Source: Bacteroidales bacterium | GTDB lineage: Bacteria > Bacteroidota > Bacteroidia > Bacteroidales > F082 | DNA: 64,000 nt | NCBI GenBank assembly: GCA_021647205.1 | Contig: JAKIVD010000003.1 | Location: forward strand, 1-64,000 | Reading direction: 5' to 3' | Part shown: positions 43,967-50,849 of the stretch, one piece after another | How the letters are laid out: the number at the start of each line of letters is the position of its first letter | Numbering within the stretch: the stretch's first letter is position 1 | The notes under the pieces: model-generated | Told to the model about the DNA's origin: nothing | Seen by the model: the letters and a program-made list of their open reading frames with translations, nothing else | The model's database searches: none | Made by a program: the position numbers and the translations under genes

Positions 43967-44389
43967 ATGACGAAAATATTAAAAGACCGTACCGAAGTAA
44001 AAGTCCGTTTTGGAGAAGTCGATTCCATGGGCATTGTCTGGCACGGGAATTACGTAAAATATATTGAAGAAGGCAGAGAATCCTTCGGAAAAAAATACGG
44101 TATTTCCTACCTCGATATTGCCTCCAACAATGTAATGGCACCGGTAGTTAATATGAGTATCGACTTCAAAAAACAGGTGTACTATGGAGATGTCCTGATT
44201 GTTGAGACTGAATTTGTTGACCAGGAAGCTGCCAAGATTGTTTTTAAATTTACTATTTATCGCAAGTCCGACAACGAACTGGTAGCCACTGCCGAAAGCA
44301 CCCAGGTATTTATCAACATGAAGCGTGAAATGATTTACTACCCACCCCAGTTTGTGATGGACTGGAAGAAGAAAGTGGGCTTGATTTGA
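43967..44389 (+). CDS. 4-hydroxybenzoyl-CoA-type hotdog thioesterase
   Basis: 140 aa. Classical 4HBT/YbgC signature VRFGEVDSMGIVWHGNYVKY with catalytic Asp19 and the neighbouring His; compact hotdog fold, normal length. Such thioesterases release acyl chains from ACP or CoA. Its stop codon (44387-44389) sits at the first copy of a 24-nt tandem repeat. In aryl-polyene and flexirubin loci a thioesterase of this type is a common part; chain release or editing is the inferred role. Confidence 0.88.
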   Translation: MTKILKDRTEVKVRFGEVDSMGIVWHGNYVKYIEEGRESFGKKYGISYLDIASNNVMAPVVNMSIDFKKQVYYGDVLIVETEFVDQEAAKIVFKFTIYRKSDNELVATAESTQVFINMKREMIYYPPQFVMDWKKKVGLI

Positions 44390-44507
44390 AAATGAGGCAA
44401 TTTGGTAATTTGAAAATGAGGCAATTTGGTAATTTGAAAATGAGGCAATTTGGTAATTTGAAAATGAGGCAATTTGGTAATTTGAAAATGAGATAATTTG
44501 GTAATTG
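44388..44507. repeat. 24-nt tandem repeat, five copies
   Basis: GAAAATGAGGCAATTTGGTAATTT begins at 44388, 44412, 44436, 44460 and 44484. The first four copies are identical; the fifth differs (GAGATAA, ending TAATTG). It starts inside the thioesterase stop codon. On the reverse strand it reads as a repeated FSNYQIAS frame that I do not regard as a gene. Confidence 0.9.
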
Positions 44508-44587: not shown

Positions 44588-44833
44588 TTTTTTAACCCAA
44601 AATTTGAAATCGCCATCTATCCCAACCCCACTACCGGGAAAATTACACTTGATAATTTGGGCAGGAACATGCAGCAGTTAAAACTGACCGACCTGTCTGG
44701 AAAGGTCTTGTTTGAAGAATCAGGGGGCAATCCGACAGAAACTTTGGATATGACTTCTTTTCCGTCAGGAGTTTACATCCTCAGTATACAAACTGACAAG
44801 GTCGTTTCCACATCAAAAATCATTAAACAGTAG
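44588..44833 (+). pseudogene. Orphan T9SS type A sorting-domain remnant
   Basis: An open frame from 44588 to the TAG at 44831-44833 has no start codon near its 5' end. It encodes IYPNPTTGKITLDNLG ... LSGKVLFEES ... SFPSGVYILSIQTD ... KIIKQ, a complete C-terminal Por-secretion tail of about 75 residues. Directly upstream is TAA (44585-44587) and then unrelated spacer with repeats. It is therefore the end of a T9SS cargo gene whose body is gone. It differs in sequence from the sorting domain of the 35348 gene. Confidence 0.85.
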
Positions 44834-45001: not shown

Positions 45002-47050
45002 ATGACCTACCTCATCGCCGATAACATCATATCCTCTTTAGGATTCACCACTTCCCAAAACTTTGAAGCCCTAAAGGCAGCTCGTGTGGGCATCAAAAAC
45101 ATCGATGACAAATTACTTTACCCTGAGCCCTTTCCGGCTTCTGTGGTAGATACGGATGAATTGAATGCTCATTTTGCGAAACTGAATGCCAAAACCCCTT
45201 TTGCCCGTCTCGAAAAAATGATGATCCTCTCCATTGTGGATGCATTGGGTAAAACAGGGGTTGATATTCAATCTGAAAGAACGGGCATTATTTTGTCGAC
45301 CACCAAAGGAAATATTGATTTGCTGGGAAGTGAAAGCCAAAGCAGTTTTGACCAGGAACGCGTTTTGCTGTGGCGCTTGGGTGAAGTTATTGGCCATTAT
45401 TTTGGCAACCCCAACCGGGTGGAAGTTTTGTCGAATGCCTGCATCTCCGGTGTGGTGGCATTGAATACTGCTGCCATGCTCATCAAAAACGGAAAATACG
45501 ACAACGTTGTAGTTTGTGGTGGCGATATTGTTTCGCGCTTTGTAGTCAGCGGCTTCATGTCGTTTTTATCCCTCAGCCCCACCGCCTGCAAGCCTTTTGA
45601 TGAAAAGCGCGACGGCCTTTCGCTGGGGGAAGCAGCCGGTACCATAATTGTAAGCAATACACCAAACGAAGGCCAAAATATTGTCTGGCTGGGCGGCGCT
45701 TCTGCCAACGATGCCAACCATATTTCGGGGCCAAGCCGTACCGGGGAAGGTTCGTTTATTGCCATCCGAAAAGCATTAGTCGAAGCCGGAATTGAAAGCC
45801 GGGATATCGAACACATTTCGGCACACGGAACAGCCACGCCCTACAACGACGAGATGGAAAGCATCGCCATCAGCCGGCACAATATGGAAAATGCGACGGT
45901 AAACAGTCTGAAAGGAAGTTGGGGGCACACCCTGGGCGCCGCAGGTATTATCGAAACCATTGCCCTGGCCGAAGAAATGCGGCAAAACACCCTGCTCAAA
46001 ACCGCCGGATTTGTGAAGCACGGCGTTTCAAAAGCCATCCATGTTATCAACCAAACTCAAACAAAGGAATTAACTACCTGCCTGAAAATGGCATCCGGAT
46101 TTGGCGGGAGCAATGCGGCACTGGTGTTGGGAAAGCTTGGGTCAGATGGAAGCCGGAAGTCGGGAGTCGGAAGTCAGAATCCGGCAGCCGGCAGCCGGCA
46201 GTCAGACAATCTAACAATAGAACAATCAAACCATCTAACAATAGAACAATCAAACCATCTAACAATAGAACAATCAAGCCATCTAACAATAGAACAATCA
46301 AACCTTCTAACCATTCAGCCGTCTAACAATCAAGCCATCCCGCAACCTGCAACCCGTAACCTGCAACCCGAAACCCGCAACCCGCAACCTGCAACCCGCA
46401 ACCCGCAACCCGCAACCCGCAACCCGGTCATCACCACCTGTTGCCACATCAAAAACAACAAGGTTTACCTCAACGGGAAATTGCTTTTTGAGGACAGGAA
46501 AGCGACAGATTTGAATACCTTTATCAAAAAAGCTTTTCGCCATTTCAAACCCAAATACCCCAAGTTTTTTAAGATGGACGACATCAGTAAGCTGGGTTTT
46601 CTGGCTGCGGAAATCATGCTTGCCAACAATTCCGGCACGGATTTTAAAGAAGAGGAAATTGGCGTTGTTTTGTCCAATTCACAATCAACATTGATAACGG
46701 ATTCCCGCTTTCAGGAAAGTATAAACGAGGACACTAACTTTTTCCCCAGTCCCGCTGTTTTTGTGTACACCCTGCCCAATATCATGATTGGTGAAATTTC
46801 TATTCGTCATAAGTTGAGAGGAGAGAATGCTTTTTTTATCTTTGCCGCCTTTAATGCCGGATTTTTAACCGACTACATCAACGGCCTGTTTTTCAGCCGG
46901 AAAATAAAAGCGTGTATCGGGGGATGGGTTGATGAAAAAGAAGAGGGTTACGAAGCCTTTATGTATTGGACAACAGCGCAATCCATGCAGGAAAATACGA
47001 AAGCACATTCGGCCCAAGAGGTAAACAAATTATACAATTCAATAGGATAA
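45002..47050 (+). CDS. Ketosynthase fused to a truncated ketosynthase-like domain by a repeat-encoded linker
   Basis: 682 aa. Residues 1-380 are a complete KAS I/II-type ketosynthase, with Cys147 in SNACISG, His275 in SAHGTATP and His309 in WGHTLGAAG. Residues about 382-475 are encoded by simple repeats: SRKSGVGSQNPAAGSRQ from GGAAGTC units, the octapeptide LTIEQSNH from a 24-nt unit, and PATRNPQ from heptamers. Residues 476-682 form a KS-N-terminal-like domain (DDISKLGFLAAEIML, PSPAVFVYTLPNIMIGEI, FFIFAAFNAGF) without a catalytic Cys, resembling aryl-polyene chain-length-factor-like proteins. The enzyme would extend the polyketide/polyene chain with the ACP at 47056. No stop interrupts the linker. 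Confidence 0.85.
   Translation: MTYLIADNIISSLGFTTSQNFEALKAARVGIKNIDDKLLYPEPFPASVVDTDELNAHFAKLNAKTPFARLEKMMILSIVDALGKTGVDIQSERTGIILSTTKGNIDLLGSESQSSFDQERVLLWRLGEVIGHYFGNPNRVEVLSNACISGVVALNTAAMLIKNGKYDNVVVCGGDIVSRFVVSGFMSFLSLSPTACKPFDEKRDGLSLGEAAGTIIVSNTPNEGQNIVWLGGASANDANHISGPSRTGEGSFIAIRKALVEAGIESRDIEHISAHGTATPYNDEMESIAISRHNMENATVNSLKGSWGHTLGAAGIIETIALAEEMRQNTLLKTAGFVKHGVSKAIHVINQTQTKELTTCLKMASGFGGSNAALVLGKLGSDGSRKSGVGSQNPAAGSRQSDNLTIEQSNHLTIEQSNHLTIEQSSHLTIEQSNLLTIQPSNNQAIPQPATRNLQPETRNPQPATRNPQPATRNPVITTCCHIKNNKVYLNGKLLFEDRKATDLNTFIKKAFRHFKPKYPKFFKMDDISKLGFLAAEIMLANNSGTDFKEEEIGVVLSNSQSTLITDSRFQESINEDTNFFPSPAVFVYTLPNIMIGEISIRHKLRGENAFFIFAAFNAGFLTDYINGLFFSRKIKACIGGWVDEKEEGYEAFMYWTTAQSMQENTKAHSAQEVNKLYNSIG
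46204..46330. repeat. 24-nt in-frame repeat inside the ketosynthase gene
   Basis: Unit CTAACAATAGAACAATCAAACCAT starts at 46211, 46235, 46259 and 46283, with degenerate partial copies at both ends (46307 onward). 24 nt is a multiple of three, so gain or loss of units keeps the frame (eight residues each). A GGGAGTCGGAAGTC block (46162-46175) precedes it. Confidence 0.9.
46342..46425. repeat. Heptamer tract (GCAACCC/T), twelve copies, inside the ketosynthase gene
   Basis: Twelve consecutive 7-nt units, the last five being identical GCAACCC (46391-46425). A change by any number of units not divisible by three would shift the frame upstream of the C-terminal domain. Confidence 0.9.
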
Positions 47051-47055
47051 CAGAG

Positions 47056-47310
47056 ATGGAAGAATTGATTGAAAAACTAAAAGTGCAAATTATTGAGCAG
47101 TTGAATCTGGAAGATATGGAACCGGAAGATATTGATGCTGAAGACCCTTTGTTTGGAAATGGTATGGGACTTGACTCGATTGACGCACTGGAACTTATCG
47201 TGCTTTTAGAAAAAGAATACGGGATTAAAATTCAGAATCCCAAAGACGGCCAGAAGATATTTTTTTCCATAAAAAGCATGGCCGAATTTATTACAGCCAA
47301 CCAAAAATAA
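47056..47310 (+). CDS. Acyl carrier protein
   Basis: 84 aa from the ATG at 47056. Acidic four-helix bundle with the phosphopantetheine attachment site GLDSIDALEL (Ser41). It is 5 nt after the first ketosynthase and directly abuts the second (its TAA is followed by ATG at 47311), so all three are translated together; it is therefore the dedicated carrier for this pathway. Holds the growing chain for the ketosynthases, dehydratase and thioesterase. Confidence 0.93.
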   Translation: MEELIEKLKVQIIEQLNLEDMEPEDIDAEDPLFGNGMGLDSIDALELIVLLEKEYGIKIQNPKDGQKIFFSIKSMAEFITANQK

Positions 47311-49653
47311 ATGGCAGGGCGCATTGCAGTTACAGGAATCGGGATTATTTCTTCCATCGGGAACAATGTGGAAGAAAACCACAATGCGCTCATCCGGCAA
47401 CAAACGGGAATCGGCAAAATTTCCATTTTAGAAACCGTCCACAAAGATGATTATGTATTGGGTGAAATTAAACTTACCCACGACCAACTCATCCAAATGG
47501 CGGCTGTTGACCCGGAGAAAGCCTGGACACGGACTGCCCTTTTGGGTATAATTGCCGCCCGGCAAGCCTTTGAGGATGCTGCTGTTACTGTTGGTGATTT
47601 ATCCGCCACCGGCCTGGTTTCGGCTTCTACGGTTGGCGGGATGGACCGCAGCGAATTGTATTACATCGATTTTCTTTCCGAAGCCAGACATAATAAATAC
47701 ATCGACTCGCACCATGCCGGCAACAGCACCGAAATGATTGCCGAACAATTGGGTATTTCCGAATACCTGACCACCGTGAGTACGGCCTGTTCGTCATCCT
47801 TAAACAGTATTATCCACGGGGCAAGGTTATTGCATCATGGGATTGTAAAACAGGTTATTGTAGGCGGAACCGATGCCCTTTCGAAATTCACCGTAAATGG
47901 TTTCAATACCCTGATGATTCTCGACCCGGAACATTGCCGGCCTTTTGACGAAAGCCGCCGTGGATTGAATTTGGGAGAAGGCGCTGCCTACCTGGTCTTA
48001 GAATGGGAAGGCGAAGCCCTAAAAGCCGGTAAACCCATTCACGCCCTGTTGGGTGGCTATGCCAATGCCAACGATGCTTTTCACCAAACAGCTTCATCGT
48101 CAGACGGAACCGGCCCTTTTCTGGCCATGTCGGGTGCCTTGAAAAAAGCCGGATTACAAGCTGTCGATATCGATTACATCAACGTACATGGTACCGGTAC
48201 CGAAAACAACGACCTCACCGAAGGTACGGCCATGAAGCGGCTGTTCGCTGACAAAGTGCCGTTTTTCAGTTCCACCAAAGCCTTTACCGGCCACACCCTG
48301 GGCGCCGCCGGAAGCGTAGAATCCGTCTTCTCGATACTTTCCCTGAAAAACAATACCATTTTCCCCAACATCAATTTCAAACAAAAAATTGAAGGCTTAG
48401 GTTTGTCGCCCGTTACTGAAGTTCTTTCCCAAAAACTCACACATGTGCTGACCAACTCATTTGGCTTTGGCGGTAATGATTCATCAGTTGTTTTTTCAAA
48501 ATGGGAAAAACAGACCTCCCAGCCTGCGCGCGCGATAGCCACCGGGATGGAAGCTTCTGATGAGGCAAGTGGCCGGGAGTCGGAAGTCGGAAGTGTTTCG
48601 GTTTTTATCAATGGCATCGGTGCTGTCAGCCCGCAAAACACCCTCGAACCCGGATATTTTCCGGAGAATATTGAGGCGCATGAAGAAAGATATCTGCAAA
48701 TCCAAAAGCCTGATTTCAAAAAACACATTACACCGGCAAAGCTCCGGAGGATGAGTAAAATTGTGCGGATGGGCATTGTGGCTGCCAAAACTGCCATGAA
48801 CGAAGCACAGGTACATGAACCCGGCGCCATCCTCACCGGAACGGGAATGGGCTGCCAGGCCGACACGGAAAAGTTTCTCAACGGATTGATTGACAGCAGG
48901 GAGACATTGCTCAGCCCTTCCCCTTTTGTCCAGTCAACACACAACACCATCGGGGCTCAGATTGCCTTGTTGCTGGCTAACAATAACCACAACCTTACTT
49001 ATGTACACCGTACTTTCTCTTTTGAGAGTGCGTTGCTCGACAGCCTGATGCTTATTCGGCAAAACGAAGCCGAAAGCATTTTGTTGGGCGGAATTGACGA
49101 AGTTACCGAAGAAAGCTGGACAATTAAAACAAGAATTGGCTTTTATAAAAAAGGGGCGGTAAAGAGCCTGCAACTTTTACATGACGAACAAACGGGCTCC
49201 CTTGCCGGCGAAGGTGCTGCCTTTTTTGTGCTTTCGAATGAAAAAACCGAAAAGACTTATGCCGAAATCCTCGGGACAAAGACTTTTTTCCGGCCGGAAA
49301 ACCAAAATGAGGTTGAAAAAGAAATAGCAGGATTCCTGGAAGAGAACCACCTACGCGTTGCGGATTTGGGACTGGTCATGCAGGGTTACAATGGCGACAG
49401 GGTGTTCGACAGTATTTATGAAAACCTGGAAGAAAAACTTTTTGCTAAAAACAACACCGCCTGGTTTAAACACCTTTGTGGGGAATACGACACAGCATCG
49501 TCTTTTGCCATGTGGATTGCTGCCGGGGCATTGAAATCAGGGCTTATTCCCGAACCAATTCTAAGACGTAATTTCGACAACTTTCAGAACAGGCCGGTTT
49601 TGATTTACAATCAGTTCCGAAATGTGAACCACAGCTTGATTTTGTTGGGCTGA
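47311..49653 (+). CDS. Ketosynthase fused to a degenerate ketosynthase (chain-length-factor-like) domain
   Basis: 780 aa. Residues 1-398 are an active-looking ketosynthase: Cys160 in STACSSSLNS, His293 in NVHGTGTE, His328 in FTGHTLGAAG. Residues about 430-780 form a second, diverged ketosynthase-like domain (VFINGIGAVSPQ, SKIVRMGIVAAKTAM, AILTGTGMGCQADTEKF, ILLGGIDEV). At the nucleophile position the block is YVHRTFSFESALL, with no Cys, which suggests a chain-length-factor role. The junction (residues about 400-429) includes RESEVGS from GGGAGTCGGAAGTCGGAAGT (48575-48594), the repeat also seen at the other ketosynthase junction. Likely forms KS-CLF pairs within one chain. Confidence 0.85.
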   Translation: MAGRIAVTGIGIISSIGNNVEENHNALIRQQTGIGKISILETVHKDDYVLGEIKLTHDQLIQMAAVDPEKAWTRTALLGIIAARQAFEDAAVTVGDLSATGLVSASTVGGMDRSELYYIDFLSEARHNKYIDSHHAGNSTEMIAEQLGISEYLTTVSTACSSSLNSIIHGARLLHHGIVKQVIVGGTDALSKFTVNGFNTLMILDPEHCRPFDESRRGLNLGEGAAYLVLEWEGEALKAGKPIHALLGGYANANDAFHQTASSSDGTGPFLAMSGALKKAGLQAVDIDYINVHGTGTENNDLTEGTAMKRLFADKVPFFSSTKAFTGHTLGAAGSVESVFSILSLKNNTIFPNINFKQKIEGLGLSPVTEVLSQKLTHVLTNSFGFGGNDSSVVFSKWEKQTSQPARAIATGMEASDEASGRESEVGSVSVFINGIGAVSPQNTLEPGYFPENIEAHEERYLQIQKPDFKKHITPAKLRRMSKIVRMGIVAAKTAMNEAQVHEPGAILTGTGMGCQADTEKFLNGLIDSRETLLSPSPFVQSTHNTIGAQIALLLANNNHNLTYVHRTFSFESALLDSLMLIRQNEAESILLGGIDEVTEESWTIKTRIGFYKKGAVKSLQLLHDEQTGSLAGEGAAFFVLSNEKTEKTYAEILGTKTFFRPENQNEVEKEIAGFLEENHLRVADLGLVMQGYNGDRVFDSIYENLEEKLFAKNNTAWFKHLCGEYDTASSFAMWIAAGALKSGLIPEPILRRNFDNFQNRPVLIYNQFRNVNHSLILLG

Positions 49654-49736: not shown

Positions 49737-50279
49737 TTAAAGATTAAACCGCTCCGGGTGCTTTCCGCGAAAACCGCGATAGAAATCCTGGATTTCATTG
49801 AAGTCTTTTTCAAAATTGCCTGTGGGGTAGAACAATGGGCCGATGCCGCCGCGTTTGTCAGGATAGTCAATCCACCCCAGGGCAATGGGTACTTCGGCTT
49901 TCAGGGCGATGTAATAAAAGCCGCGCTTCCAGTTTTCGACGCGTTTGCGGGTAGCTTCTGGGGTGATTACCAGCACAATCCTTTCGTGTTCGTTCACCAT
50001 TCGCGCCACCGCGTCAACCATCTTTTCATTCTTTCTCCGGTTTACCGGAATTCCGCCCAGGGCTCTCATCAGGCCACCAAAGGGCCATTTAAAAGCTTCC
50101 TTTTTAATCAGCAGCTTGATGGGGTAGGCGTAATGCCAGAAAACAATGCGGCCGATGACAAAATCCCAAAGACTGGTGTGCGGGGCCTGGATGAGGACTG
50201 CTTTTTTTATATCAGCGGGTATTTCACCACTGATTTTCCAACCAATTATTTTAAGGATGAAAGTTGCCGTTTTTTGCAT
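49737..50279 (-). CDS. PlsC-like acyltransferase paralogue A
   Basis: 180 aa. Compact acyltransferase with motif I APHTSLWD (His34, Asp39). Motif III reads TPEATRKR instead of the usual PEGTR, so the conserved Gly is Ala. Otherwise it matches paralogue B next to it (LTPEGTRKRTDKWKRGFYFIAL vs ITPEATRKRVENWKRGFYYIAL). The two genes are 1 nt apart. Convergent to the ketosynthase gene. Likely acylates a glycerol- or amino-lipid; direct evidence for a link with the polyene pathway is only proximity. Confidence 0.82.
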   Translation of the reverse strand: MQKTATFILKIIGWKISGEIPADIKKAVLIQAPHTSLWDFVIGRIVFWHYAYPIKLLIKKEAFKWPFGGLMRALGGIPVNRRKNEKMVDAVARMVNEHERIVLVITPEATRKRVENWKRGFYYIALKAEVPIALGWIDYPDKRGGIGPLFYPTGNFEKDFNEIQDFYRGFRGKHPERFNL

Positions 50280-50280
50280 C

Positions 50281-50823
50281 TCACAAATTAAAATTCTCAG
50301 GGTGCCTTCCTTTTATCCCCCTGTAAAAACCCATGATTTCTATAATGTCTTTGTCAAAATCCCCTGTCGGGTAAAAGGGCGGGCCGACCCCTGCCTCTTT
50401 TTTTTCGTAATCAATATAGCAAAGCAGGATGGGGACTTGCGCCTTGAGCGCAATAAAATAAAAGCCCCGTTTCCATTTGTCCGTTCTTTTGCGTGTCCCT
50501 TCGGGTGTGAGGGCAAAAAACATGGGGTCGTTTTCCTTGAACAGCTCAACTACCTGATCGACACGGTTGGTGCTTTTGCTCCGGTCGATGGGGATGCCAC
50601 CAACTTTTTTTAACAAGCTGCCAAAAGGCCAGAAAAAGGCTTCCTTTTTAATGACCACATTAATGGGGATGTCTTTTATCCAACAGTAAAAACGGCCAAT
50701 GTAAAAATCGAGGTTGCTGGTATGGGGTGCAATGAGGAAAACTGCCCTGGAAACCCCTTCGGGTACGCCACCCGCGGCTGTCCAACCGGTTAATTTATAA
50801 ATGAGTTTGGAAAGGGTTTTCAT
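50281..50823 (-). CDS. PlsC-like acyltransferase paralogue B
   Basis: 180 aa, same length as its neighbour. Motif I is APHTSNLD, motif III PEGTRK, both intact. ATG at 50823 chosen: a longer frame begins at TTG 50844, but the -7 box TACTTTTG (minus strand, 50842-50849) overlaps that position. Sequence, length and spacing indicate a recent-style tandem duplication with paralogue A. Confidence 0.83.
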   Translation of the reverse strand: MKTLSKLIYKLTGWTAAGGVPEGVSRAVFLIAPHTSNLDFYIGRFYCWIKDIPINVVIKKEAFFWPFGSLLKKVGGIPIDRSKSTNRVDQVVELFKENDPMFFALTPEGTRKRTDKWKRGFYFIALKAQVPILLCYIDYEKKEAGVGPPFYPTGDFDKDIIEIMGFYRGIKGRHPENFNL

Positions 50824-50841
50824 AAACGGGTTTTGTTTGCC

Positions 50842-50849
50842 CAAAAGTA
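50842..50849 (-). promoter_or_regulatory. -7 promoter box for the acyltransferase pair
   Basis: Minus-strand TACTTTTG matches TAnnTTTG. 18 nt from the ATG at 50823, supporting that start. Confidence 0.55.

Follow-up and report, generated by a model that had tools for sequence, protein, structure and literature searches.

A ketosynthase and a half-size chain-length-factor-like domain joined in a single reading frame by a repeat-encoded linker in a putative Bacteroidales pigment gene cluster

The window analyzed here (the whole 64-kb stretch of DNA, to which the coordinates in Table 1 refer) contains, at positions 45002-47050 of the forward strand, one uninterrupted reading frame encoding 682 amino acids (aa), which consists of a ketosynthase (KS) domain, a linker and a domain resembling a chain length factor (CLF). 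An earlier reading of the letters without database searches (the sequence-only reading) had described a single open frame spanning the KS, simple repeats and a C-terminal half domain, and this observation is confirmed. In KS-CLF pairs, condensation is carried out by the KS; the pseudo-dimer is made complete by the CLF half, which also gives the chain-length cavity its shape. The Pfam matches, the matches to the FabF fold and the Cys-His-His triad point to a KS of the KAS I/II type; the triad (Cys147, His275 and His309) is invariant in an alignment of 12 fused homologues, so that the KS appears, as had been proposed, complete and active-looking, with its end moved from residue 380 to residue 378. 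No second mid-ORF tandem array of comparable size was found in the 64-kb window by examination of the ORF list and with Tandem Repeats Finder.

The fusion ORF belongs to a flexirubin/dialkylresorcinol-type cluster, as judged by the matches of the cluster proteins to the DarB (NF053539; 566.5 bits, cut-off 550), DarG_fam (156.2 bits, cut-off 70) and DarH (462.5 bits, cut-off 300) models; the narrower flexirubin_DarG model scored 163.4, slightly below its cut-off of 170. The second KS-CLF fusion of the cluster is one gene in many genomes of the family and separate genes in others. Several other features of the neighborhood deserve mention. A 24-nt array, ATTTGAAAATGAGGCAATTTGGTA x 5.1 (44384-44506, 97% matches), lies immediately 3' of the cluster thioesterase gene, and an orphan type IX secretion C-terminal sorting domain, lacking the upstream protein (44588-44833; PF18962, E 3.7e-14), is located between the thioesterase and KS genes and is probably a pseudogene remnant. 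Beside the pigment cluster, on the reverse strand (49737-50844), there are two neighboring, similar acyltransferase-like ORFs (180 and 187 aa) that seem to have arisen by tandem duplication.

Table 1 Features of the fusion ORF and of the genes downstream.
Feature	Position	Strand	Details
Ketosynthase domain	45002-46135	+	Residues 1-378; PF00109/PF02801
KS catalytic residues	Cys147 45440-45442, His275 45824-45826, His309 45926-45928	+	Intact
Repeat-encoded linker	46136-46429	+	Residues 379-476; 294 nt; stop-free and in frame
Repeat family 1, GGAAGTC/GGCAGCC heptamers, 28-nt period	46149-46206	+	Tandem Repeats Finder (7/28 nt)
Repeat family 2, 24-nt unit TCAAACCATCTAACAATAGAACAA x 4.6, 8-nt sub-period	46202-46311	+	Tandem Repeats Finder
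Repeat family 3, heptamer CCCGCAA x 12.6	46339-46426	+	Tandem Repeats Finder
Half-size CLF-like domain and stop codon	46430-47050	+	Residues 477-682; profile and fold matches
Acyl carrier protein, directly downstream of the fusion ORF	47056-47310	+	PF00550
Second KS-CLF fusion, 780 aa	47311-49653	+	PF00109/PF02801/PF13723
Short GGAAGTC heptamer run, linker of the second KS-CLF fusion	48571-48594	+	

For the C-terminal domain, Pfam produced a weak KS-N-like match (PF00109, E 0.083), and a single-sequence search of the PDB scarcely recognized it. A profile of 58 CLF-half sequences matched Iga12 (6kxd_B, E 8.5e-4), the CLF of ishigamide synthesis, and Iga12 was also the top fold match (6kxf_B, E 1.3e-5) of the predicted CLF-domain structure (pLDDT 88), with a moderate TM score (0.59) for this model against the CLF chains of Iga11-Iga12. 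The position of the nucleophile Cys appears to be taken by Phe617. These results agree with the description of this region as a KS-N-half-like domain without the nucleophile; in addition to the KS-like fold and the missing Cys, it resembles CLFs in being encoded beside the KS in nearly all loci that contain both parts, and in its predicted pairing with the KS. The half size is not odd in itself because ApeC, the CLF of the aryl polyene ApeO-ApeC pair, likewise retains only the first thiolase fold and is about half the size of a KS (6QSP; PMC8358021). The two systems share the combination of a KS with a half-size, one-thiolase-fold CLF and an aryl-polyene-type pathway, but ApeO and ApeC are separate chains, whereas here there is one chain, and the window CLF is not close to ApeC in sequence: residues 477-682 contain no match to PF13723 (Ketoacyl-synt_2), and, in a comparison with the 7f28 chains (198-203 aa), the fold match was weak (E about 3e-4).

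The linker had been described as about 94 residues translated from three simple-repeat families; the three families were recovered, and the length was revised to 98 aa. Its coding frame contains no stops, whereas the other two forward frames contain 9 and 2. Under a first-order Markov model, a linker frame is open by chance with a probability of 0.08 in the window and of 0.28, 0.78 and 0.66 in three other fused relatives; several frames of a heptamer array are open, so that openness alone, for any one species, is weak evidence.

A homologue search among metagenome assemblies, with one genome per species, yielded 80 loci. Among loci that contain both parts, about 75 from Bacteroidota carry KS and CLF as separate adjacent genes, the matched regions mostly lying 17-30 nt apart, so that the expectation of separate genes in relatives holds almost throughout. 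In the close unfused relatives (L035, L037 and L034), the junction is GCGTGATGG or similar; the nearest ones (GCGTGATGG/GCATAATGG) span 20 nt, and the KS stop overlaps the CLF start (TGATG). The repeats that the sequence-only reading had expected between the genes of unfused relatives are absent from them, and no ancestral repeat spacer that turned coding was seen there.

The fused state is found, in addition to the window, in two genomes of the same genus (G001 and G002) and in one close genome assigned to another genus, g2 (G074, locus L032; 56% complete). In all four, KS and CLF are in register and the linker is stop-free, but the linkers have almost nothing in common. That of G001 (84 nt) consists of GTCGGCA/CCAACCCT repeats; that of G002 (135 nt), of AAAATTC-like repeats and a palindromic element; and that of G074 (159 nt), of GGAAGTC/AACAGTC repeats and the same element, GGGGAGATGTCCGAAGGACAGAGGGG, which adjoins the CLF in G074 and, as a diverged copy, in G002. 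The longest stretch common to any two of the four linkers is 18 nt, which rules out a conserved linker sequence; a non-repeat linker conserved in all relatives, which would have spoken against the repeat-based interpretation, was looked for and not found. In the KS tree, the four fused loci emerge at one unresolved fork, so a single origin of this fusion is possible; the distribution supports the view that it is derived and confined to a small clade. Over all fused loci, the tree requires at least three label changes, that is, at least three gains of the fusion, the further cases belonging to genus g14 and to three order-level families. Linkers are ordinary in the order-level fusions (L019, L022 and L025) and in four of the five fused species of g14; the fifth, G091, carries TCAGATTN octamers in the linker and about 20 such arrays in its genome. 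Two unfused loci (L009 and L010) contain non-coding insertions at the KS/CLF junction.

Repeats of the kinds found in the linkers are present elsewhere in these genomes. In pattern searches, CCCGCAA-type arrays were counted at 13 other sites in the window genome, and 12 of these are intergenic, in line with the suggestion that repeats of an intergenic kind make up the linker; the remaining one overruns the end of a 490-aa ORF (L153:3008-3041; G000 C17:43607-43640), the terminal KTRNPQPAT of which is repeat-coded. Relatives of the GGAAGTC family occur elsewhere in G000, G001, G002 and G074, arrays related to the 24-nt family in G000 and G001, and the palindromic element at 4-11 sites in each of the four genomes. 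The orthologous spacer that follows a gene ending in VPEELK contains 8/24-nt repeats in the window genome and GGAAGTC heptamers in G001; this swap of repeat families at one place parallels the KS-CLF linker. Locus L176 is the orthologous VPEELK spacer in G001, holding another repeat family. At L175:2870-3090, the far side of the array carries a second copy, about 40 nt, of the end of the VPEELK gene, as if produced by template switching.

A case apart is TilS, which is a single gene in all compared genomes and never a gene junction. In G091 (L180) and G089 (L181), TilS is interrupted in frame by two repeat tracts, (ACAACAG)n and (TCAGATTC)n, which are absent from the orthologues in G082 and G125; G089 TilS has an additional SHCHSHCHSHC run. 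TilS and G091 rule out the possibility that the KS-CLF linker is the only repeat-coded one and suggest that repeats invade linkers with or without a former junction.

Analysis of substitution rates in the fused lineages (pairs with unsaturated dS) gave dN/dS of about 0.1 for the KS and 0.15-0.2 for the CLF (about 0.2 between species of the same genus), values that show purifying selection on both domains. The AlphaFold2 model (pTM 0.82) comprises two folded domains, with residues 381-471 disordered (pLDDT below 50). When compared to solved structures, the model aligned better with the single-chain KS-CLF of PfaC (6riw, TMq 0.67) than with KS-only chains (about 0.51), the pattern predicted for pairing of KS and CLF in cis, in an arrangement modeled from 12 sequences.

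Taken together, these observations make it likely, in our assessment, that the ORF encodes a single-chain KS-CLF of the pigment cluster in which the junction was replaced in an ancestor, the linker was subsequently rewritten, and the linker serves as a tether in cis. Under this scenario, the overlap of stop and start at the junction would have been swapped for in-frame sequence in the common ancestor of the genus and one close relative; afterwards, the linker would have been rewritten in each species by the short tandem repeats and the palindromic repeat of its own genome, constrained solely by the reading frame and the absence of stops. The repeats would form a disordered tether that keeps the two domains paired 1:1, the covalent linkage substituting for the translational coupling that the TGATG overlap would provide in unfused relatives. 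Repeat DNA could occupy the tether and be exchanged in it because the sequence of the tether would hardly matter.

Three alternatives are less probable. The CLF might still be translated on its own, from a start site within the frame, the open linker frame being incidental: in the linkers of G002 and G074, the palindromic element includes an in-frame ATG (MSKGQRGQIT and MSEGQRGQIA, respectively), which could serve as a start for a separate CLF, and that of G001 contains an in-frame GTG. In the window linker, however, there is no ATG, GTG or TTG in frame, and the first in-frame ATG of the CLF part, Met525, lies within the conserved KMD motif, so that a start there would remove conserved sequence. 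Because the CLF is under purifying selection and the linker lacks these codons, the CLF is apparently needed and, in the window, would be made via the linker only; most probably, it is translated only as part of the fusion, and we regard the internal start as improbable. We find it only slightly easier to accept that the linker is a phase-variable switch in which one CCCGCAA unit gained or lost turns the CLF half off. As in a contingency locus, the unit length of 7 nt is not divisible by three, the final units are near-perfect, and a change by one unit was computed to shift the frame and to terminate the protein at residues 498-501; against this, the frame is on in each of the four fused species, the units are diverged (87% matches), and the linkers of the other species contain few or no perfect heptamer runs. 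An assembly artefact or a decaying pseudogene is highly improbable: repeats are hard to assemble and the genome is a metagenome assembly, but four separate genomes are fused in frame, each with a different linker, and the selection on both domains argues against decay.

The strongest competitor accepts the single chain and reverses the order of events, so that a small deletion or stop loss first fused the genes through a short linker of ordinary sequence, into which repeats moved later, separately in each species. We assign to this course of events a somewhat less than even chance. It is exactly what is seen in g14, where G091 with its octamers stands beside the four ordinary linkers, and it is favored also by the comparably invaded TilS and by the ordinary linkers of the order-level fusions; the g14 case shows that repeats may enter after the fusion. 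It is harder to reconcile with the finding that all four linkers of the window clade hold repeats or palindromic material precisely where the stop/start used to be, with the palindromic element at the same position in G002 and G074, and with the unfused L009 and L010, in which this junction has received non-coding insertions. We lean slightly toward the insertion of repeats or the palindrome at the junction as the event that made the fusion, as opposed to later invasion.

Returning to the single-chain KS-CLF with a rewritten linker, each of its elements has partial precedents. The KS and CLF are covalently joined also in PfaC of the PUFA synthases, with which the predicted model aligns over both domains; PfaC differs in being a part of a megasynthase and much longer (923 residues in the structure), unlike the window fusion, a discrete type II enzyme with a half-size CLF and a repeat-coded linker. 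Dispersed palindromic elements of Rickettsia reside in frame within functional genes and alter the protein (PMC10969869); these are families of about 150 bp encoding a conserved peptide, whereas the linkers of the window clade consist mostly of short tandem repeats from several unrelated, species-specific families, lie at domain junctions, and include a palindromic element in only two of the four cases. With its three tandem-repeat families, and with relatives' linkers sharing at most 18 nt, the window linker was rejected as a Rickettsia-type palindromic coding element. Intergenic heptamer repeats (TAACTGA) have been described in Beggiatoaceae, Cyanobacteria and some Bacteroidetes (PMC4679880); according to the same study, modular proteins might tolerate them between their subunits. 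These are similarly short arrays, located mostly between genes, but the sequences differ, and TAACTGA contains stops in the forward orientation, whereas the CCCGCAA and GGAAGTC arrays are readable. In the literature searched, which was covered in part, we found no matching report of a KS-CLF fusion, or of any bacterial gene fusion, via simple repeats.

The interpretation that had been offered, an unusual route to a new multidomain enzyme through intergenic repeats that became coding, is partly supported: the fusion has recurred at least three times and has a known counterpart in PfaC, but the material of the linker and its turnover are unusual. Recruitment of repeats into coding sequences is known already, and the KS-CLF fusion is itself one of several; what appears to be new is a predicted enzyme whose linker is built from the simple repeats of each genome and rewritten from species to species. 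This is a comparable case of an inter-domain linker arising from non-coding repeat DNA, in which the state before (overlapping separate genes) and that after (four fused species with four linkers) can be seen side by side, and in which the process recurs independently in G091 and in TilS. Two questions become testable in this way: are repeats the cause of gene fusions or later occupants of linkers, and what is the minimal sequence that a functional linker requires? A change by one CCCGCAA unit could, in principle, switch the CLF off. More tentatively, the short tandem repeats of this Bacteroidota family may represent a standing source of in-frame coding sequence at gene junctions and linkers, which would merge operon genes and rewrite linkers while the domains stay conserved.
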